Source: Acidobacteriaceae bacterium (lineage in GTDB: Bacteria > Acidobacteriota > Terriglobia > Terriglobales > Acidobacteriaceae). From it: DNA of 64,000 nucleotides. Below the pieces are notes generated by a model. The model had not been told where the DNA came from. It was given only the letters and a program-made list of their open reading frames with translations, and ran no database searches. How positions within the stretch are numbered: position 1 is the first letter of the stretch; each line of letters opens with the position of its first letter. This document shows, one piece after another, positions 1,847 through 11,497 of this stretch. The stretch lies in assembly GCA_003139095.1 (NCBI GenBank), contig PLHW01000041.1:124261-188260 (forward strand). The letters run 5' to 3'. A program made the position numbers and the translations under genes.

Positions 1847-2155
1847 ATGGACCGTATTGCCGCATTGACCGAAATTCTCGCCGCCAATCCTGAAGATGCA
1901 TTCGCACGCTACGGGCTGGCGATGGAATACTCCAAGACCGGCGACATCGACCGCGCGCTCGCGGAATTCAAGACGTTGCTCGAAAAAAATCCCGACTATA
2001 CTCCCGGATATTTCATGGCTGCGCAGACCCTGGCAACCGCCGAGCGCGTCGACGAAGCCAGGCGCATGCTCGTTGATGGCATCAGCAGCGCCCGCCGCAC
2101 CGGCAACCAGCACGCCCAGTCCGAGATGACCGCGATGCTCGAAGAACTCAAGTGA
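1847..2155 (+). CDS. Small tetratricopeptide (TPR) protein
   Basis: A 102-residue cytoplasmic protein made almost entirely of TPR helices, roughly three units: about 4-20 (LTEILAANPEDAFARYGLA), 21-54 and 55-90. The PEDAFARYGLAMEYSKTGD and NPDYTPGYFMAAQTLA segments have the small/large residue spacing of TPR consensus. Such proteins act as protein-interaction scaffolds, and the partner is unknown. No signal peptide. The hairpin array upstream ends two bases before the start. The next gene is 400 bp away behind its own riboswitch, so this is probably a single-gene unit. Confidence 0.8.
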   Translation: MDRIAALTEILAANPEDAFARYGLAMEYSKTGDIDRALAEFKTLLEKNPDYTPGYFMAAQTLATAERVDEARRMLVDGISSARRTGNQHAQSEMTAMLEELK

Positions 2156-2255
2156 GATCAGAGGTTCGAGGTCAGATCCGAGGTGAAAACACCAGGCTGC
2201 CAGGACAAATGTAAGCTGTGAAATCCTTAGAATCCTTCATTTTCGTCGAAACTCC

Positions 2256-2282
2256 TTGACAGACCGCCCGGTCGGTTATAAG
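2256..2282 (+). promoter_or_regulatory. Promoter with palindromic operator-like core before the SAM riboswitch
   Basis: A perfect -35 TTGACA (2256-2261) and a -10-like TATAAG (2277-2282) are 15 bases apart, slightly short for sigma-70. Between them lies ACCGCCCGGTCGGT (2263-2276), a 12/14 imperfect palindrome of the ACCGnCCGGnCGGT type seen in TetR-family operators. A repressor bound there would block the promoter. The repressor is not in the window. Confidence 0.55.
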
Positions 2283-2314
2283 ATCCATTCCCAAGTTTGC
2301 TCGAAGTGAGCAAA

Positions 2315-2437
2315 CCGGAATTTCATGCAGAGTGGCTGAGGGACGAGCCCAGAGACGCCACGGCAACCGGGTCGCGATCATCTATCGCCATTGCAGGTGC
2401 CAACTCTCGCCCGGTAACGGGGACCATGAGATTCGGG
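2315..2437 (+). promoter_or_regulatory. SAM-I (S-box) riboswitch aptamer
   Basis: The conserved S-box core is present: GAGGGACGAGCCC, then GCCACGGCAACC (near 2339-2368), then GGTGCCAACTC (2396-2406). The closing P1 helix is clear: CCGGAATTTCAT (2315-2326) pairs with ATGAGATTCGGG (2426-2437) with one mismatch and one G-U. In this family S-adenosylmethionine binding stabilises P1 and turns the downstream gene off. The gene 120 bp downstream is threonine-synthase-like, so its product is predicted to be made when SAM or methionine is scarce. Confidence 0.92.
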
Positions 2438-2470
2438 TAAGCGAACGATATTGATTTCGCATCTCCCGAG

Positions 2471-2499
2471 CCTCTTTTCCTACCCGGAAAAGGGGTTTT
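2471..2499 (+). terminator. Riboswitch expression-platform terminator
   Basis: CCTCTTTTCC (2471-2480) pairs with GGAAAAGGGG (2486-2495) across the loop taccc, followed by TTTT. It lies between aptamer and coding region, as expected for SAM-triggered premature termination. The P1 3' strand TCGGG can alternatively pair with CCCGA just before the stem, a candidate antiterminator contact. Confidence 0.8.
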
Positions 2500-2558
2500 G
2501 TCGTACACGGGGAATTTTTCCCGGCTCGTCCCGCCGCCACAGAAAGAGAAGTTGCAGG

Positions 2559-3815
2559 ATGACGACGAGCACGTACCAGCTCCGCTGCCGCGAATGCGGT
2601 AAGACCTTCGATAACCAGCCGCGCTCGGTTTGCGAGTGCTTCTCTCCGCTCGAAGTTACCTACGATTACGATTCTCTCAAGAAGAATGTTTCGCGCGAGC
2701 TTTTCGCGTCGCGCGCCGAGAACATCTGGCGCTATCGCGAACTGCTGCCGCTGCCGCCGGGATTTACGCCTTCGCTGCCCGTCGGGTTCACGCCGCTGGT
2801 GAGCGCGCCGCGCCTCGGAGAAAAGATCGGCTCGCGCGGACTCCACATTAAAAATGACGCCGTGTGTTTGCCGACCTTGAGCTTTAAAGATCGCGTGGTC
2901 GCAGTCGCGCTGGCCAATGCACGCGGCTTTGGCTTCGAAACGGTGGCGTGTTCTTCGACCGGCAACCTGGCGAACGCGGTGGCGGCGCAGGCGGCCCGCG
3001 ACGGCTTCAAGGCGTGGGTTTTCATTCCCGCCGATCTCGAGCCCGCGAAGATCCTCGGAACCCACGTGTTCGGCGCGGAAGTCGTCCGTATCAACGGCAG
3101 CTACGATCACGTGAATCGCTTGTGCTCGCAAATTGCCGACGAGCATAACTGGGGATTCGTGAACGTGAATCTGCGCCCCTATTATGCGGAGGGCTCGAAG
3201 ACCGTCGGCTACGAGATCGCCGAGCAACTCGGCTGGCGCTTGCCGGATAACGTGGTCGTGCCGATGGCCGGCGGATCGCTGATTACAAAAATCAAGAAGG
3301 CGTTCGACGAGTTGATTCTTCTCGGCTTGGTTGAGCCGAAGCAGGTGCGCTTCTTTGGCGCGCAGGCGTCCGGCTGCTCCCCGATTTCGACGGCCATCAA
3401 GCAGTACAGCAGCGAGATCGAGCCGCAAAGGCCGAAGACGATTGCGCGCTCGCTCGCCATCGGCAATCCCGCCGACGGTCACTACGCGATCAAGGCAATC
3501 ACCAAAAGCGGCGGATGGTCGGAGGATATTTCCGATCCCGAGGTCGTCAACTCGATTCAACTACTGGCGCAAACCGAAGGCATTTTCACCGAGACTGCGG
3601 GCGGCGTGACGGTAGGCGTAGCGCGCAAATTGATCCAGCAGGACCGCATTCTGCCGGATGAGACAACCGTGCTCTGCATCACGGGCAACGGACTGAAGAC
3701 GACCGACGTGCTCGCCGACAAGTTCCAGGCGGACAAGCCGATTGCGGCGAAGCTCAGCGAGTTCGAAGCATATCTCGCGGCGAAAAATACCGACTTGCCG
3801 GCGGCCGTGGCCTAA
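2559..3815 (+). CDS. thrC: Threonine synthase family PLP enzyme under SAM riboswitch control
   Basis: 418 residues. An N-terminal zinc-ribbon-like motif (C10, C13, C25, C27) precedes a fold-type II PLP enzyme: Lys110 in LPTLSFKDR is the Schiff-base lysine, SSTGN at 132-136 is the phosphate/cofactor loop, and PMAGGSL follows around 230. The classic reaction is O-phosphohomoserine to threonine. The ATG at 2559 starts just before the zinc ribbon; the frame is open further upstream but that part is riboswitch. The SAM-I riboswitch and the downstream MoaD/ThiS-like gene do not fit plain threonine synthesis. They suggest a sulfhydrylase-like use of O-phosphohomoserine with a protein thiocarboxylate, making homocysteine. 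Family assignment is firm; that activity is inference. Confidence 0.88.
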   Translation: MTTSTYQLRCRECGKTFDNQPRSVCECFSPLEVTYDYDSLKKNVSRELFASRAENIWRYRELLPLPPGFTPSLPVGFTPLVSAPRLGEKIGSRGLHIKNDAVCLPTLSFKDRVVAVALANARGFGFETVACSSTGNLANAVAAQAARDGFKAWVFIPADLEPAKILGTHVFGAEVVRINGSYDHVNRLCSQIADEHNWGFVNVNLRPYYAEGSKTVGYEIAEQLGWRLPDNVVVPMAGGSLITKIKKAFDELILLGLVEPKQVRFFGAQASGCSPISTAIKQYSSEIEPQRPKTIARSLAIGNPADGHYAIKAITKSGGWSEDISDPEVVNSIQLLAQTEGIFTETAGGVTVGVARKLIQQDRILPDETTVLCITGNGLKTTDVLADKFQADKPIAAKLSEFEAYLAAKNTDLPAAVA

Positions 3816-3817
3816 CG

Positions 3818-3884
3818 ACAGTTCTCAGTTACCAGTTTCTACCTCGGGGCTTTCTGAGAACTGAGAGCCGGTAACCGCGAACTC
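3818..3884. repeat. Word-repeat hairpin between thrC and moaD-like gene
   Basis: AGTTCTCAGTTACCAG on the left pairs (13 of 16) with the reverse complement of CCGGTAACCGCGAACT on the right; the additional words CTGAGAACTGAGAG lie between. It belongs to the same family as 1724-1845. It lies inside the thrC-moaD transcription unit, ending about 7 bp before the moaD ribosome site. Confidence 0.75.
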
Positions 3885-3899
3885 TATAAAGGAGATTTT

Positions 3900-4184
3900 A
3901 TGAGCATTACTGTACAAATTCCGAGCGCGTTGCGGCGTCTTACGGGTGGCGCTCCCCATTTGACGTGCGAAGCCGCGAACCTGCATGAACTGTTTGCCGC
4001 GCTCGACGGAAAGTTCCCGGATCTGAAGTCCCATCTGCGCGACGAAGCCGGCGAGGTCCGCCGCTTCCTGAATATCTATGTGAACGAGGAAGACATACGC
4101 TTCCTGGGCGGCGCGTCGTATGCATTTCAGGAGGGCGACGAGGTCCTGCTGGTGCCTTCGATCGCTGGCGGCAGGGATCGGTGA
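3900..4184 (+). CDS. MoaD/ThiS/CysO-like ubiquitin-fold sulfur carrier
   Basis: A 94-residue beta-grasp protein. It has the family's order: strand SITVQIPSALRRLTGG, helix NLHELFAALDGKFPDL, NIYVNEEDIRFLGG, and the C-terminal block GDEVLLVPSIAGG. The diglycine (about 90-91) is the site that E1-like enzymes adenylate and convert to thiocarboxylate. Here it is followed by three residues (RDR), so a protease would have to expose it, as JAMM peptidases do in CysO-like pathways. A GGAG site sits 6 bases before the ATG. Location behind the riboswitch-controlled PLP enzyme points to a sulfur donor role in homocysteine or cysteine synthesis instead of molybdopterin. Fold assignment is strong; the role is inferred. 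Confidence 0.85.
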   Translation: MSITVQIPSALRRLTGGAPHLTCEAANLHELFAALDGKFPDLKSHLRDEAGEVRRFLNIYVNEEDIRFLGGASYAFQEGDEVLLVPSIAGGRDR

Positions 4185-4276
4185 CTTCAGTTGCCTCAGC
4201 CTTCAGCGGCGCAGCCTCACAGCCGCGCGTGATTCGGGTCACTTCTTAGGCCTGCATCCGCTACTAGGCTTGAGTT

Positions 4277-4780
4277 ATGCGCCTCAAGCAGAATTCGTGG
4301 AACGCGGTCGTGGTGAGAAAATCGTGGGCAAACCTGCGGGCGATTCGCGCCTTCCTGCGCGATGCCGCGCCGCAAGACGTTCAGGACGGAAACGGTGAAT
4401 CTCATTCGCCCCGCAACGGCCAGACTCGCGAAGCGCGCGCGGGCCGCTTCACAGATTCGGGAAATGGCAGGCGGAAAGCCCACTCCCCAGAGACAGAACG
4501 GACCTTGCATCTGGACCGCGATTCACACGCGGACGATTACGCCACAGAAACCGCCGATGATGGCCATACCATCCTCGCGCGCGTGCTCGACGACACCGAC
4601 GAACGCGGTCTCTGGATCGAGCTGAACACCAAAGAACACGAGAAGAATCCCGCGGTCGAACTCCAGGCAATGATGATTCCGTGGCACGCGGTGCTCGCGG
4701 TCGTGGCGGCCGACGATTTCGGCGCCGCGGCAGAGCAAGTCGAGAAACTTCGCTTCACGCTAAGCACAAGCTCGCGTTAG
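4277..4780 (+). CDS. Hypothetical protein, C-terminal half more credible
   Basis: A 167-residue frame with no recognised family. The C-terminal part, from about residue 95 (GHTILARVLDDTDERGLWIE) through IPWHAVLAVVAADDF, reads like a folded small domain with alternating hydrophobic positions. The N-terminal 60 residues are rich in Arg, Asn and Gly and look less natural. A second frame is open across the same stretch (4362-4625), so a later start or a frameshift is possible. No signal peptide. It converges on the lipoprotein gene, with a terminator between. Confidence 0.4.
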   Translation: MRLKQNSWNAVVVRKSWANLRAIRAFLRDAAPQDVQDGNGESHSPRNGQTREARAGRFTDSGNGRRKAHSPETERTLHLDRDSHADDYATETADDGHTILARVLDDTDERGLWIELNTKEHEKNPAVELQAMMIPWHAVLAVVAADDFGAAAEQVEKLRFTLSTSSR

Positions 4781-4861: not shown

Positions 4862-5365
4862 CTACATCGCCGAATCGGAATTAAAGGTATCGGCGATCGC
4901 TTTCCAGCTTCCATCGGCCTGCTTGGTGTAGACGGTCAAATACTTTCCATGCTCGGTCACCGGTTTTTTCGTCTTCGGATTCGTCATGGTCATGGTGTAT
5001 GTGCCCTCCGAATAGACCATGTCTCCTCCCTTTGAGGCCATCATGCGTGTGGACGAGAACGTCAGCGCGAAATTGGGATCGGCGAGCATCGGCGTCATCG
5101 CCGCTTTGAGCGCTTCTTTCCCATTCACGGTTGGCGCGCCCGGATAAAGTCCCGATCCGTCTTCTGTGAAATAGCTTGCCCATTTTGCGGGATCCTTGGT
5201 GGCCGCATCTTTCACCCAGGCCGCTTCCACATCTTTGACGGCTTGCATATCGGCGGCGCGCGTGTCAGGCGGCGCAGCGGGAGCCGCCGCAGGCGCGACC
5301 GAATTCGAGCATCCAATGGCGGCCAGGCACAGAATCACGGCTAACATCGGCAAAGTGAAACGCAT
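4862..5365 (-). CDS. SnoaL/DUF4440-like lipoprotein
   Basis: 167 residues starting at the ATG at 5365, preceded by a strong AAGGAGG. A lipoprotein signal is clear: hydrophobic MRFTLPMLAVILCLAA, then IGC with Cys19 as the lipidation site. After an Ala/Pro linker (20-35) comes an NTF2-like fold: QAVKDVEAAWVKDAATKD, FTEDGSGLYPGAPTVNGKEA and ADGSWKAIADTFNSD match the SnoaL-like/DUF4440 pattern. These domains often bind small ligands or act as isomerases; no catalytic role can be assigned here. It would be anchored at the cell envelope. It lies downstream of fabG but behind its own ribosome site and a 200 bp gap. Confidence 0.85.
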   Translation of the reverse strand: MRFTLPMLAVILCLAAIGCSNSVAPAAAPAAPPDTRAADMQAVKDVEAAWVKDAATKDPAKWASYFTEDGSGLYPGAPTVNGKEALKAAMTPMLADPNFALTFSSTRMMASKGGDMVYSEGTYTMTMTNPKTKKPVTEHGKYLTVYTKQADGSWKAIADTFNSDSAM

Positions 5366-5516
5366 GTTCTCCCTCCTTAATTCTTCGTGGGTTTCGCGGG
5401 ACCGCGAGGCCCGCGACATTATACCTCCCTGCGCTTGGATCGGCTTCCCAGACTTCGACTTTCGGGGATTAAGATGCGAAAGTTCTGGAATGGACCAGCG
5501 ATCGGCATCGCGCTAC

Positions 5517-5560
5517 GGTTTTACTGATAGCTGAAAACTGAGAGCTGAGAACTTCAAACG
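5517..5560. repeat. Short ACTGAGAG/GCTGAGAAC word array
   Basis: The words AGCTGAAAACTGAGAG and CTGAGAACTTC follow in direct succession just downstream of the fabG stop codon. It is the single-arm version of the 1724 and 3818 family; no clear second arm is visible. Confidence 0.6.
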
Positions 5561-5565
5561 CACCC

Positions 5566-6309
5566 TTACCCCATCAGCATGCCGCCGTTTACATTCAGCA
5601 CGTGCCCGGTAATGTATGCAGCCTCCTCGGAGGCGAGGAAAGTTACGGCGTTCGCTACGTCGTCGGGAGTGCCCACTCGTCCGAGCGGAATCTGCTTCAG
5701 CGCGGTCTGCTTGAACTCGTCGCTCAGCCCCGCCGTCATGTTGGTTTCGATGAAGCCCGGCGCGACGGCATTGCACGTAATGCTGCGCGAGGCGACCTCG
5801 CGGGCGATGGCCATCGTCAGTCCCAACAGCCCAGCCTTGGAAGCTGCGTAGTTCGCCTGGCCCGCTTGGCCGGTCCGCCCGAATACGCTGCTGATGTTGA
5901 TGATGCGGCCCCAGCGCTGCTTGAGCATCGATGGAATGACCTGCTGGATCGCGAGGTAGGCCGACGTGAGGTTGGTGGCCAGCACGGCGTCCCAGTCGGC
6001 GCGCTTCATCCGCATCACCAACTGATCGCGCGTGATGCCGGCGTTGTTGACGAGGATGTCGATTTTGCCGAAGTGCGCAAGCGCGGCCTTGATGCCCGCT
6101 TTGACCTGCTCTTCGTCGGCGACGTCCATGGCGAACGCGGCGGCCTTCGCGCCAGTCGATGCGATCTCGGCGACCAACTCATCGAGTTTCTGCGCATTTC
6201 GCGCGGCAACGGCAACGCTCGCTCCGTTACGAGCCAGATGCAGCGCGCAAGCGCGGCCGATTCCTTGCGAGGCGCCGGTAACCAGCGCAACCCGTCCTTC
6301 AAGGTTCAT
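5566..6309 (-). CDS. fabG: 3-oxoacyl-ACP reductase FabG
   Basis: A 247-residue classical short-chain dehydrogenase that reduces 3-oxoacyl-ACP with NADPH in fatty-acid elongation. TGASQGIG at the N-terminus is the Rossmann nucleotide loop, NNAG follows at about 90, the catalytic Ser is in INISSVFG and Tyr/Lys in NYAASKAG (about 153-157), and the end TGHVLNVNGGM is typical of FabG. The start ATG at 6309 has AGGGAG upstream. The frame stays open further upstream but without family sequence. fabG usually sits next to fabD and acpP; here fabD is 34 kb away, so this copy is unlinked. Other SDRs of similar sequence exist, but the match is close to true FabG. Confidence 0.9.
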   Translation of the reverse strand: MNLEGRVALVTGASQGIGRACALHLARNGASVAVAARNAQKLDELVAEIASTGAKAAAFAMDVADEEQVKAGIKAALAHFGKIDILVNNAGITRDQLVMRMKRADWDAVLATNLTSAYLAIQQVIPSMLKQRWGRIINISSVFGRTGQAGQANYAASKAGLLGLTMAIAREVASRSITCNAVAPGFIETNMTAGLSDEFKQTALKQIPLGRVGTPDDVANAVTFLASEEAAYITGHVLNVNGGMLMG

Positions 6310-6956
6310 GAGAACTCCCTGGAACGGGGAATTATAAATAAAGCCGCGCGCCGAAACGCGGAAGTCTTGAAGTTCAATCTGTGAGCACTCTCGTGAGCTC
6401 CGGTCAGTCTCCTTTTCAAACGAACTCAGTACCAAAGCGCGATGCGGCTTTCACAGTTGGCATAAACTTGTGATCGCCTCCGCTCGGCGGTTTGGCCTGC
6501 ATCGTTGGACTCGACGTTCGTTGGCTCGACGTTCCTAGTCCTGCAGCTCCATATTGGAACTCAGGCGCTCGTGTTGGGGACCCCCCTCTCCCCGGTCTTT
6601 TGGAATCAAAGACTTGGACATGGAAAGCGCCAGGTCTTTGAGTTTAAAGGTGTTACCAGTAAAGTCTTTATTTTTTAATGAGTTAGGAAGTCTCCCCGCC
6701 GAGTCGCAACATTTCGATTCTTTTCTCCTCTGCTTCACGGCCTCAGCCGTTCCGAGTTCTCACCTCGTAAATTTGTCAAAGACCGAGCGACCACGGGTGC
6801 GCTTAGCACCTGCTTATATTTTATCAAGCGATGTCAACCGAGATGCGGTAGTTTGGTCGAACTCTGCGATGAGACCGATTAGCGAGTTGTCCCTCCGTCG
6901 CGGTTACGGTAAACCGTGAAGCCGTTCTGCATCGCACGCGCCTTTGGCGATTTGCT
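6310..6956. other. 647 bp non-coding stretch holding the fabG upstream region and a dispersed element
   Basis: No convincing gene is seen on either strand. The left third (6310-6540) is the fabG 5' region. The centre holds copy 1 of the C-run/AT-rich element (6577-6692). The right part (6700-6956) is AT-richer than the surroundings and runs to the stop codon of the response regulator. No tRNA-like cloverleaf was seen. Confidence 0.5.
6577..6692 (+). repeat. Dispersed AT-rich intergenic element, copy 1
   Basis: It opens with GGGACCCCCCTCTCCCC, then TGGAATCAAAGACTT, then GCCAGGTCTTTGAG and AAAGTCTTTATTTTTTAATG. The same succession occurs, inverted, at 45600-45822 and more diverged at 59990-60306. 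The repeated AAAGACTT/AAGTCTTT words could pair with each other. Confidence 0.75.
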
Positions 6957-7502: not shown

Positions 7503-10037
7503 CTACTTCGGCGCGCTGAGAATGGTGTGGTAGGGGTCGAGCACAATTTTATGGACGCCCGCCGGCGCGGTCATCTGGAATGGCGTCTCTGGTCCGTCAG
7601 CCAGCGTTTCGCCCAGAAAAACCAGCGAGTTACCGGCGACGACGCCATAGACCGGCACGGCCGTGATGAGATCCTCGCCCGCGTGTTTTTGCAGAATCAA
7701 ACCAGAAACGTTGCCCGCGCCCGCCTTCTCGCCCAAATGTACGTCGCGCACCGAAAGCTCCGGAATCGCTGTCCCGTTGATCCAGCTCTCCAGAAACCAG
7801 TTCAAATTGTGATGATTCTGGTACCAAAGTGGGCGGGGCAGTTCCTCTTCGAAAACCTGCACGAGCTCGCGCGTGCTCATCGCCTTGCCCGCGTACCGAT
7901 CGCGCGCTTTGCGGAGCGCCCGGAAGAAAGGCTCATCCGGGTTGGCGGGCGCTTTCCGGGAATGCGACGCCATCTCCGAATCGCGCATCATGCAGCGCAG
8001 CATGTGAAACAGCCAGGTTCCGCGTTCGTAGCTGATCTCCTCGTACGCGTCGGGGAAGTGCGACGAGATCAATCGCTGCCCCAGCGTGACCGGTCCCGCC
8101 TCGCGCAGCAGTTCGCCATCCTTATTCTTGCTGAGCAGATCGTTGCGGTACTTCTCCATGATCTGGTGGAACGCGGCGGGATTTTGCCGCTCCAGCAAAA
8201 GCAGCGCCGCGTAATTTGCCAGACCCTCGGAAATCCACTGGTCGCGATACGACTTCCAGAGCACGAGATCGCCCCACCACTGATGCGCCGTCTCGTGGGC
8301 CAGCACTTTGAGGTTCAACTCGCGCGCGATGGGATCGATGTGCAGATCGTGTTGCTCTTGCGGGCCGAGAAACGCGGTGCTGGAAAGAAAAATCAGGCCC
8401 GGCCAGCCCTGGCTCAGGTCGCCCGGCATTTGCGTAAGCGCCAGCGAGGGAAATGGAAACGGCCCAAACCACTCCGCGAAGTTCCGGATCGCTTCGGCGG
8501 CGCGGTCGGCAACAAACTGAACATCTCGCGCGGGCGACGGAGGCGGCGGAGACACAGCCACCGGCGGCAGCGCCCTCGCCCTCGGCGATTCCGGCAAAAT
8601 CAGCGGCTCGACGGCCTCGGCCGCCGGCATCGGAAACGACTTCTCGACTCCCCTGGTTCCGTACGCCTCAACCGCAACCGTGCCCGCCTTCGCCTCGGCG
8701 CGCACATACTTGCCGAGGTTGAACCCGGCGACGGGAATCGGACGATCCGAGATCCAATGTGAACTCTTCATGCCCGCAGGCTCAGCGCCTGTCTTCGAGG
8801 CCGCTTCCGCAGCGCGCGAACTCTGCTTCCCCGTCGCCAGCAGCGTCCATCCCGCCGGATAGCGAAACGTCAGATCGAACTGCGCCGGACTCAGACCGAA
8901 GTTCGGATACCAGATGCCGCGCGCGCCCACGTACAACAAACCGCCGCCCGCATCCGACAGAACATCGCCCGCATAATGAAAGCTGAGTTTCGTCTCCTGC
9001 CCGCTCTTCAACTCGGCGGGAAGCACCACCGCAACCAGATCGTTTCCCTTGCGCCGCAGCTGAGTTCCCTCGATGGCCGGATTCTGTATGAAGTCGAGAG
9101 CGTGACCGCCCATTTCGACGGAAGAAATTTTCAAATAGCGCGACAACTCGAAAAGCAGCGTGCGCTGCCCTCCACCGCGAACGCGCAGGTCGAGATCGGC
9201 GGAGGCCTGCAATTCCGTCGGTGGATTGACCGTCGCTCGAATCCGATAGCTGGAAATCGAAATGTCATTCGCGCGCGGCGCAGCGGCCACGCCCGGAATG
9301 GTGGGCGCAAACGACGTCCAGATATCGAAGTAGTCCGCGCCATCCCTGGTCTCGGCCTGGCCCGCCCACAGCGGCTCGGAAATCGCCGCATCCCAGAAAA
9401 TTTCGAACGCGCCCAGCTTTCTGCCCAGCAGGTGCGCGTGCAGCAGCGGGGGAAATTTCGCATCGCGCGCCGACGTTTTCGGCGGGAGAAAATGGCTGAA
9501 ATCGACGAACAAACGGGTCGCATCGAACTCCGCCAACCGGTGCGCCGCCTCGCCCCAATCCTTCAGAAAATCGCCCGCCTCCGTCGCGGGCGAAAGAAAC
9601 GGTTGCAGAAGTTCCGCCGTGTTGTCGTTGAAGCGAAAGTACGCGGAGGCAAACTGCTCCTCAAGAATTGCCGTGCCCGTAAACATGGACAGCGATGCAC
9701 GCTCCACATGATTTGGCGGCTGCACCAGAACCTCGCCGTCGCCCACAAAAAACGCGCCCGTGATGCGGCCACAGACGTCTTCGGTAAAGGCAATCGTTCC
9801 GTCGTCGAAGGTAAGGTCGAGATTGGGATGGTGAATCGAGGCGTCGCGCACGTGATACACGCGTGCGGCGTCAAGGCCAACCGTCCGCAGTCGCGCGTAG
9901 AGTCCGTCCGACGTGCCGGGGCAATCGGCCGGCGATTCCGCGCAGGCGGCCACGGCGCACAATAGGCAAGCGATCAGCCACGTGGTTCGCCATCCCGGGC
10001 GCGCGAAGCGCAACAACCGAACGAGCACCTTAGTCAC
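7503..10037 (-). CDS. Secreted M1-family metallopeptidase
   Basis: 844 residues. The gluzincin zinc site HETAHQWWGDL (about 580) with the third ligand Glu in SEGLANYAALL, about 20 residues later, defines the M1 aminopeptidase superfamily. An N-terminal hydrophobic segment ends in a lipobox-like AVAAC (about 29-33), so it is likely an exported lipoprotein. The N-terminal half (about 40-440) is a long beta-rich region before the catalytic part. The usual GAMEN exopeptidase motif is not obvious (LTQMPGDLSQGWPGLIFL stands in that place), so aminopeptidase specificity is uncertain. The GTG start at 10037 is only 38 bp from the divergent GTG start at 10076. Confidence 0.88.
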   Translation of the reverse strand: MTKVLVRLLRFARPGWRTTWLIACLLCAVAACAESPADCPGTSDGLYARLRTVGLDAARVYHVRDASIHHPNLDLTFDDGTIAFTEDVCGRITGAFFVGDGEVLVQPPNHVERASLSMFTGTAILEEQFASAYFRFNDNTAELLQPFLSPATEAGDFLKDWGEAAHRLAEFDATRLFVDFSHFLPPKTSARDAKFPPLLHAHLLGRKLGAFEIFWDAAISEPLWAGQAETRDGADYFDIWTSFAPTIPGVAAAPRANDISISSYRIRATVNPPTELQASADLDLRVRGGGQRTLLFELSRYLKISSVEMGGHALDFIQNPAIEGTQLRRKGNDLVAVVLPAELKSGQETKLSFHYAGDVLSDAGGGLLYVGARGIWYPNFGLSPAQFDLTFRYPAGWTLLATGKQSSRAAEAASKTGAEPAGMKSSHWISDRPIPVAGFNLGKYVRAEAKAGTVAVEAYGTRGVEKSFPMPAAEAVEPLILPESPRARALPPVAVSPPPPSPARDVQFVADRAAEAIRNFAEWFGPFPFPSLALTQMPGDLSQGWPGLIFLSSTAFLGPQEQHDLHIDPIARELNLKVLAHETAHQWWGDLVLWKSYRDQWISEGLANYAALLLLERQNPAAFHQIMEKYRNDLLSKNKDGELLREAGPVTLGQRLISSHFPDAYEEISYERGTWLFHMLRCMMRDSEMASHSRKAPANPDEPFFRALRKARDRYAGKAMSTRELVQVFEEELPRPLWYQNHHNLNWFLESWINGTAIPELSVRDVHLGEKAGAGNVSGLILQKHAGEDLITAVPVYGVVAGNSLVFLGETLADGPETPFQMTAPAGVHKIVLDPYHTILSAPK

Positions 10038-10075
10038 CTACGAAGTCCCCAGCCAGGGTTCTACAATCGGCAAGA

Positions 10076-11497
10076 GTGCGACTACTTTGCCCCATTCTAG
10101 TGCTTTTCGCGGCGCTTTCCTCGTCCGCGGATGTGATTCACCTGAAAAACGGGCGCACTATTTGGGCGGATCAGGTGCGCGAGGACAAGAATAAAGACCG
10201 GCTCGAGTACGACGTCGGCGAAGATACCTACGCCATCCCTAAATCGTCCGTCGAGCGCATTGACGCAGGCGGAGCCGCGCCGGCGCGATCTTCAGCGGCG
10301 TCGCCGGCAGCGTCGGCGGAGATCCCCAGCTTCACGCCGCCCGCCGTGACCTTCACCCACGAAGGCGACATTGCGGAGAAAATTATTCGCGACGGCAAGG
10401 TCGACACCGACGCGCTGGCCGCGCTCGACAGCGGCAATCCGGAACTCGCCGCGACTGGATATTTCCTCGCCGGCAAGCACGAATTTGATCGTGGAAACTT
10501 TCCGCAGGCGAAAACATACTACCAGTCTGCGCTGCGCTTTGAACCGGATAACGCAACTTTGCTGATTTACTACGCGGCTAGCCTGGTGCGCACCGGGCAG
10601 GCGGCGCAGGCTGTGTCCTATGCCGAGCACGCCGTCAAAGCGGCGCCCGATTCGCCCGACTCGCTCGCCATGCTCGGCTTTGCGCAATTTGCCGCCGACC
10701 ACACGGCCGACGCGATCCGCTCGTGGAGAAAATCCGTGGCGCTGCGGCCGGACGCCACCGTCAGCCAGTTTCTGGAACGCGCCGAGCGCGAATCAAAGGC
10801 CGAGTCCGACTTTTCCGAGCGCGAGAGCAGCCACTTTAATCTGCACTTCGAAGGCAAGCAGACGAGCGAAAGTTTCCGGCACGATCTGCTCGCGGCCCTC
10901 GACTCCGACTACGACGACCTGGTACGCGACTTGGGTTACTCGCCGCACGACACCATCGCCGTCACGCTCTACACGCAGCAAAGCTTCTTCGATGTGACGC
11001 GCGCGCCCTCGTGGAGCGGCGCCATCAACGACGGCAAGCTGCGCATTCCCATCAGCGGGATGGCAAGCGTGACGCCGGATCTGGCGCGCGTGCTCAAGCA
11101 CGAACTCACGCATTCTTTCGTCGCGCAAATGTCGAGCAGCCGCTGCCCTACGTGGCTGAATGAAGGCATCGCGCAGCTTGAGGAAGGCAGATCGAGCGGC
11201 TCCAACGGGCGCGCGCTGGCGCAACTGTTTGGCGCGGGAGCCGAGATTCCCTACAACATGCTGGAAGGCAGCTTTATGAGTTACTCCGGCGCCGAAGCCA
11301 GCACGGCCTACGCCGAGTCGCTCGCCGCCGTGGAATACATGCGCGACACGTACGGCATGGGCGACGTGCAGCGCATTCTCGAGCGCTTGTCGCAGGGCGG
11401 CGCCCTGGAAGCGGCATTGCGCGGCACCATCCACTCCGACTATCGCCAGCTGCGCGATGAAATGACGCGCTGGCTCGCCGAGAAATACGGGAAATAA
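10076..11497 (+). CDS. Secreted TPR protein with MA-like gluzincin peptidase domain
   Basis: 473 residues starting with GTG. Residues 1-17 form a short signal peptide, followed by the DVIHLKNGRTIWADQV strand block seen in many exported acidobacterial and myxobacterial proteins. TPR-like helices follow at about 100-245 (NFPQAKTYYQSALRFEPDN). A peptidase-MA-like domain then carries HELTHSFVAQ (about 342) and the downstream Glu in WLNEGIAQLEEG, the HExxH plus E pattern of gluzincins. Activity is therefore plausible. It is divergent from the M1 peptidase gene, giving two exported zinc peptidases back to back with an extremely short shared promoter region. Confidence 0.82.
   Translation: MRLLCPILVLFAALSSSADVIHLKNGRTIWADQVREDKNKDRLEYDVGEDTYAIPKSSVERIDAGGAAPARSSAASPAASAEIPSFTPPAVTFTHEGDIAEKIIRDGKVDTDALAALDSGNPELAATGYFLAGKHEFDRGNFPQAKTYYQSALRFEPDNATLLIYYAASLVRTGQAAQAVSYAEHAVKAAPDSPDSLAMLGFAQFAADHTADAIRSWRKSVALRPDATVSQFLERAERESKAESDFSERESSHFNLHFEGKQTSESFRHDLLAALDSDYDDLVRDLGYSPHDTIAVTLYTQQSFFDVTRAPSWSGAINDGKLRIPISGMASVTPDLARVLKHELTHSFVAQMSSSRCPTWLNEGIAQLEEGRSSGSNGRALAQLFGAGAEIPYNMLEGSFMSYSGAEASTAYAESLAAVEYMRDTYGMGDVQRILERLSQGGALEAALRGTIHSDYRQLRDEMTRWLAEKYGK

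Follow-up and report, generated by a model that had tools for sequence, protein, structure and literature searches.

A SAM-I riboswitch operon of an Acidobacteriaceae genome pairs a threonine-synthase-like enzyme with a sulfur carrier and probably serves homocysteine synthesis

The window analyzed here is a 64-kb stretch (positions 124,261-188,260 of contig C75, genome G000) of an Acidobacteriaceae genome that is 5.5 Mb in size and 98% complete. Near its start lies a forward-strand operon in which an S-adenosylmethionine (SAM) riboswitch precedes a pyridoxal phosphate (PLP) enzyme of the threonine synthase family, designated ThrC2, and a small sulfur carrier protein. A sigma-70-like promoter (TTGACA-17-TAAGAT, 2256..2284), recognized only by its match to the consensus (10 of 12 positions), heads the unit; two promoter-like sites were found on the two strands of 2150-4300, against 0.6 expected. 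The SAM-I (S-box) aptamer that a first-pass annotation of this DNA had claimed was borne out at 2320..2432, where the full Rfam model RF00162 (1-108) scored 66.3 bits (gathering score 44.4; E 3e-13 for the full 64 kb). This aptamer is the sole Rfam match at gathering score within the 64 kb, and a genome-wide search with stricter filters, by which weak matches may be lost, returned no SAM match besides it. Folding revealed an 11-pair hairpin running into TTTT at 2470..2496, and the segment 2424-2506 has a minimum free energy of -28.4 kcal/mol (z -2.8), with 2 of 200 shuffles equally low. The hairpin is likely a SAM-dependent terminator; its folding agrees with the terminator claimed earlier, but it was absent from the output of a strict terminator scan.

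The ThrC2 open reading frame (2559..3815) begins with ATG at 2559 and encodes 418 aa. It matches Pfam PALP (PF00291) with 216 bits and the threonine synthase profile TIGR00260 with 264 bits, above the cut-off of 167, in agreement with the family first assigned to it, whereas its match to PRK08197 (292 bits) falls below the cut-off of 303. The downstream gene (3900..4184) encodes a ThiS/MoaD-fold carrier of 94 aa, as had also been proposed, with 47.9 bits to Pfam ThiS (threshold 22.5); its closest solved sequence is Mycobacterium tuberculosis CysO (3dwg, E 3e-17). The carrier had been described as ending in a diglycine, which proved incorrect: its C-terminus reads SIAGGRDR, leaving three residues beyond the GG.

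Sequence and structure comparisons placed ThrC2 apart from canonical threonine synthase (ThrC). In a quick tree, 27 ThrC2 rows formed one branch (SH-aLRT 100), 17 ThrC rows another (96), and four cysM-like rows a further separate branch, under a midpoint root and with long branches flagged. Residue comparison of 88 ThrC2 sequences with 17 ThrC sequences (Thermus numbering) revealed a distinct signature: T88L, N157R, R160Y, and D323T are found in 88/88 ThrC2, S155 is replaced by Asn and A194 by Lys in 86/88, and N188 is Gly or Ser in 88/88, whereas S155, N157, R160, and N188 are kept in 17/17 ThrC. Three of these, S155, R160, and N188, we take to be substrate-phosphate binders of Thermus ThrC. 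The catalytic K61 is retained in 87 of the 88 (one sequence has a gap), as is the STGN loop, S84-N87, in all of them; ThrC2 thus combines the fold, catalytic lysine, and loop of the canonical enzyme with swapped pocket residues on a separate branch, and the signature lets annotators separate it from threonine synthase. An AlphaFold model of ThrC2, built on an alignment of 38 rows (omitting L208 and also L212, whose stretch is interrupted by a stop), reached a pLDDT of 88.7, and its best fold matches were threonine synthases (2c2b, 2zsj, and 3aey), the first being a plant threonine synthase with SAM bound. Identity is 31-35% to the C50 ThrC of the same genome and two solved ThrC, compared to 54% to the ThrC2 of Nonomuraea.

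A scan of genome contigs returned at least 593 pattern matches, at least 556 of them encoding relatives, from which the best 80 were retained as loci; ten more from further relatives made up a set of 90, in which linked genes were assigned by clustering. The best 80 span 14 named phyla plus unassigned genomes, and the nearest named records of ThrC2, among the matches listed, are Acidobacteriota. In 76 of the 80, ThrC2 is followed on its own strand by a carrier match, and in 66 this match starts less than 250 nt past the end of ThrC2; no carrier match was obtained in L160, L169, L173, and L184, the last with only 317 nt after ThrC2. The GG is kept in all 75 complete carriers (that of L165 is truncated by the contig end), being terminal in 23 and followed by further residues in 52. 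An 80-aa tail was found in L164, L167, L177, and L186; the L164 tail is a NIL domain by Pfam, and the other three resemble it on inspection by eye. In 32/90 loci, a NIL-like gene stands separately, and both members that were checked are NIL.

Other genes linked to ThrC2 are MoeB (28 of the 90 loci), cysM-like (22), TusA (14), JAMM (10), hom (9), thrB (9), and ask (8). An E1-like MoeB and a JAMM protease had been proposed earlier as partners to look for, and the window's own genome has a JAMM gene with a MoeB-rhodanese gene on contig C25. The gene order hom-TusA-MoeB-ThrC2-carrier-NIL-thrC is found in the Nitrospirota loci L171, L187, L195, and L207, with JAMM inserted before ThrC2 in L195, and L202 has a comparable run followed by a proposed homoserine kinase (TIGR02535, over cut-off) and ask. 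Residues past the GG were found in 10/10 loci with JAMM, compared to 42/65 others (one-sided p 0.019, uncorrected and phylogenetically non-independent), a weak link between a JAMM gene in the locus and a carrier tail. The cystathionine gamma-synthase-like protein of the genome was matched in one of the 80 loci (L182), within flanks of up to 6 kb. A plasmid search at E 1e-100 returned one record of 72,556, a Nonomuraea sequence of 11.85 Mb that is filed as a plasmid by PLSDB.

Control by SAM-I is common among these loci, not universal. Rfam, run on 78 of the best 80 (L220 and L221 were left out), revealed a same-strand aptamer upstream of ThrC2 in 41, from nine named phyla plus unassigned genomes, and no SAM match elsewhere in the 78. 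A model of our own, made from 16 aptamers and applied to 41 further sources, including 34 of the 37 Rfam-negative loci (all except L152, L157, and L163), matched L220, from Actinomycetota (among the nine phyla), and the Nonomuraea locus L222, with no other match at E<=1. The aptamer therefore precedes ThrC2 in 42 of the 80 loci (41 by Rfam, and L220); by phylum, Rfam placed it in 15/23 Acidobacteriota, 8/9 Verrucomicrobiota, and 5/5 Planctomycetota. A SAM-I riboswitch with a terminator lowers expression when SAM is high. Such an off switch suits an enzyme that leads to SAM, and not a threonine synthase, so that the way in which SAM would act here argues strongly for a homocysteine role.

A complete metX/metY or cystathionine route, together with the lack of another thrC, had been named at the outset as evidence that would tell against this role; the genome does not show this combination. 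Besides ThrC2, the genome has two further ThrC paralogs, one of which (L069, 7843-9219) precedes thrB (9377-10339, above the TIGR00191 cut-off) and has a PF01053 gene as its divergent neighbor. The other, of PRK08197 type (contig C51; L070, 6417-7631), was excluded from the 17 ThrC of the residue comparison and falls in no group of the tree; in it, the catalytic Lys is followed by Ala instead of Asp, and the STGN loop likewise has Ala in place of Thr. Searches of the genome for MetX, MetA, and HcyBio gave no match, and MetH is present (1232 bits, over cut-off). On the other side, three PF01053 (Cys_Met_Meta_PP) genes with at least 453 bits are found on C50, C66, and C48; none of them reaches the MetY cut-off (TIGR01326), and that on C48 exceeds the cut-off of PRK08249, "cystathionine gamma-synthase family protein". 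The only JAMM match in the genome lies on C25 (L124, 6975-10177), in a cluster of CysM, JAMM, a second CysO-like carrier (GG-KGIV), and MoeB-rhodanese genes. This gene set agrees with what PMC3227635 describes for the CysO system, and amounts to a Mycobacterium-like cysteine system, whose carrier is likewise tailed beyond the GG.

The distribution of homocysteine routes was profiled in 197 genomes of the phylum, with counts resting on positives among the matches listed and with thresholds of at least 534 bits for ThrC2 and E<=1e-60 for MetX; the curated MetX cut-off of 500 bits was passed by 0/197 of these genomes and by 0/14 control genomes. ThrC2 was found in 48 genomes, MetX in 52, MetA in 15, and HcyBio in 6. 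One or more of MetX, MetA, and HcyBio accompanied ThrC2 in 4/48 genomes, compared to 69/149 genomes without it (Fisher one-sided p 4.5e-7). Within the family of the window's genome, the values were 0/16 and 4/6 (p 0.002), and a count per genus, which alone controls for kinship, and only partly, gave 4/35 and 35/89 (p 0.0017). In a closer set of 41 genomes (the genome itself and relatives at genus, family, order, and class level), ThrC2 was found in 35, in one piece in 30 (at least 58% identity) and fragmented in five, and SAM-I in 31, at a single place in each. MetX was counted in two of the 41 (G008 and G014, 388-394 bits; all remaining matches scored at most 153 bits and were assigned to other hydrolases), and MetA in five (G012, G027, G028, G033, and G035). 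The 30 best carrier matches of the close set, the window's own included, have one to three residues after the GG in every case. In order-level relatives, G026 among them, the riboswitch-ThrC2-carrier unit and ask-thrC-thrB-hom run divergently from each other (L130).

These findings make it likely, in our judgment, that the operon directs the synthesis of homocysteine from O-phosphohomoserine by ThrC2 and the carrier, as the first-pass annotation had suggested from the sequence. Each chemical step that follows, and the sharing of the E1 enzyme and the protease with the cysteine system, is what we infer. Aspartokinase, homoserine dehydrogenase, and ThrB would supply O-phosphohomoserine. The JAMM protease of the C25 cluster would trim the carrier (3900-4184) after the GG, and the MoeB-rhodanese E1 would adenylate the trimmed protein, leading to a C-terminal thiocarboxylate. 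On its PLP cofactor, ThrC2 would eliminate phosphate from O-phosphohomoserine and add the thiocarboxylate sulfur, giving a carrier-homocysteine adduct, from which homocysteine would be released by the same protease or by hydrolysis. MetH would then methylate the freed homocysteine, and high SAM would act back on the riboswitch to halt transcription.

Such a route is already in print, and novelty to the literature is ruled out by the account of MetM and MetO in Kim et al. 2025 (PMC12172450). As described there, MetM is a homocysteine synthase of Streptomyces with an upstream SAM riboswitch and a carrier gene, metO (Hasebe et al. 2024, AEM e01247-24); the Streptomyces albulus enzyme is threonine-synthase-like and uses O-phosphohomoserine, and homologues exist in cyanobacteria. 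The window shares with this system, as far as that account describes it, a distinct threonine-synthase-like enzyme, an adjoining carrier gene, and an upstream SAM riboswitch. The Nonomuraea locus L222, an actinomycete stand-in for S. albulus, has SAM-I, a ThrC2 with most of the signature, and a carrier, in this order. The operon is most likely a member of the MetM/MetO kind; ThrC2 is a candidate metM-like homocysteine synthase, and the carrier may be called metO-like. Compared with MetM/MetO by description only, the loci examined here differ in the carrier tail past the GG, the spread over 14 named phyla, the NIL fusions, and the linkage to JAMM and MoeB. No report of NIL fusions, carrier tails, or JAMM linkage was met in the literature consulted, where Hasebe et al. 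2024 is represented through PMC12172450 alone; the breadth, tails, fusions, and protease linkage may be additions to what was described.

Several observations weigh against the proposed homocysteine role. The swapped residues at the presumed phosphate site could mean that ThrC2 acts on another substrate. SAM-I was found by Rfam in only 1/12 Nitrospirota and 1/7 Omnitrophota loci. Anti-occurrence with other homocysteine routes, which had been proposed as a check and holds across the 197 genomes of the phylum, fails among the 41 close relatives: MetX or MetA is present in 7/35 genomes with ThrC2, compared to 0/6 without it, so that here they are not mutually exclusive. Five of these six genomes are 54-82% complete and the sixth, G024, is 90% complete; G024 has MetH, yet gave no match to ThrC2, the carrier, the SAM switch, MetX, or MetA, and might be an auxotroph or a user of another route. 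In the phylum, 80 of the 197 genomes carry none of ThrC2, MetX, MetA, and HcyBio, so that a lack of MetX and MetA is by itself no proof of a role for ThrC2; these genomes, too, may be auxotrophs or use another route. In vitro, a Microcystis ThrC that is 51.6% identical to MetM converts O-phosphohomoserine to threonine and also deaminates threonine, according to Kim et al. 2025 (PMC12172450), who doubt that it fully serves the MetM function in vivo.

The activities of this Microcystis homologue tell against a role in methionine synthesis only and favor a bifunctional ThrC2, acting as a homocysteine synthase with the carrier and as a threonine synthase or deaminase without it. We regard this as unlikely, given that a canonical ThrC is present elsewhere in the genome and beside ThrC2 in several clusters. 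A threonine synthase that is itself regulated by SAM had been the second proposal of the first-pass annotation. In this reading ThrC2 would be an ordinary enzyme of that kind, with SAM adjusting its expression where the threonine and methionine pathways part, and the carrier would be an unrelated neighbor; both the TIGR00260 match and the fold matches agree with it. This variant was set aside as a poor fit, and we consider it very unlikely. Of the two other ThrC paralogs, one stands beside thrB; the pocket substitutions are fixed in every ThrC2 compared, on a branch of their own, and the carrier linkage recurs across 14 named phyla. The direction of control argues in the same sense: switching off a threonine synthase at high SAM would spare O-phosphohomoserine for methionine when SAM is already plentiful. 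The plant threonine synthase is activated by SAM, which is the opposite direction.

The genome could, in contrast, make homocysteine through its PF01053 enzymes, an O-phosphohomoserine-dependent cystathionine gamma-synthase and a beta-lyase, leaving ThrC2 and the carrier to make another sulfur compound such as cysteine. In plants, cystathionine gamma-synthase uses O-phosphohomoserine, and the genome has the three strong PF01053 genes, of which one lies divergently to thrC-thrB and one exceeds the PRK08249 cut-off; such a cystathionine route would speak against the homocysteine role of ThrC2. However, the cysteine role is apparently filled by the separate CysM/JAMM/CysO/MoeB cluster on C25, for which reason cysteine synthesis was set aside as the role of ThrC2. 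The only SAM switch found sits at ThrC2, and the frequency of a CysM-like gene beside ThrC2 indicates that ThrC2 is no mere substitute for CysM. We consider this arrangement highly improbable.

Synthesis of homocysteine by ThrC2 and the carrier would have relatives among several known systems. In M. tuberculosis, as described in PMC3227635, CysO carries a thiocarboxylate, the PLP enzyme CysM acts on an O-phospho amino acid, Mec+ is the protease, and MoeZR serves as the E1. Of all solved sequences, CysO is the one closest to the window's carrier; in contrast, ThrC2 belongs to the threonine synthase family and not to CysK/CysM, and a separate CysO-type cluster is present in the same genome. A protein thiocarboxylate also serves methionine synthesis (cited in PMC6225789). 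The Wolinella-type HcyS/MetY system shares this scheme, but the carrier-linked enzyme here is PF00291 and not PF01053. MetY itself is a PF01053, fold-I enzyme. The NIL domain is described as binding methionine and regulating another homocysteine synthase (PMC12068725); L-aspartate semialdehyde sulfurtransferase (HcyBio/DUF39 plus NIL-ferredoxin) has NIL and the homocysteine product in common with the loci described here (PMC12068725 and PMC5764234), whereas HcyBio was not matched in the window's own genome. In Bacillota, tandem SAM riboswitches precede hom1 and tandem T-boxes precede thrC, according to PMC12452182.

A broader proposal, for and against which we see the case as evenly balanced, is that much of Acidobacteriota, Nitrospirota, Verrucomicrobiota, Planctomycetota, and further phyla with few cultured members makes homocysteine chiefly through ThrC2 and the carrier, with a JAMM-trimmed precursor carrier and, in several phyla, a fused or neighboring methionine-sensing NIL domain. 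Price et al. 2018 (PMC5764234) state that one or more ways of making homocysteine were then still unknown; if the proposal is true, ThrC2 may fill some of these gaps. Genomes taken for methionine auxotrophs for lack of MetX and MetA may be able to make methionine after all, and many of the genes labeled "threonine synthase" may encode homocysteine synthases. Both the tails of the carriers and the links to NIL and JAMM suggest steps of maturation and feedback.

Some loci have further arrangements. In the close relative G040, which has MetH and no SAM match, the carrier ends precisely at the GG and its gene is followed in L135 by one for a protein with a MetE catalytic domain and then by OsmC-like and rhodanese genes (5283-6592), both possibly involved in sulfur supply. 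L162 (1204-2343) encodes a CysM-like enzyme bearing an N-terminal ThiS domain. In the Nitrospira locus L180 (1414-7206), a single SAM-I aptamer stands before a series of genes, namely CysK-like, ThrC2, NIL, CysM-like, JAMM, and carrier, the CysK-like gene lying between the aptamer and ThrC2, and the series also holds a protein that resembles ATP sulfurylase by eye.

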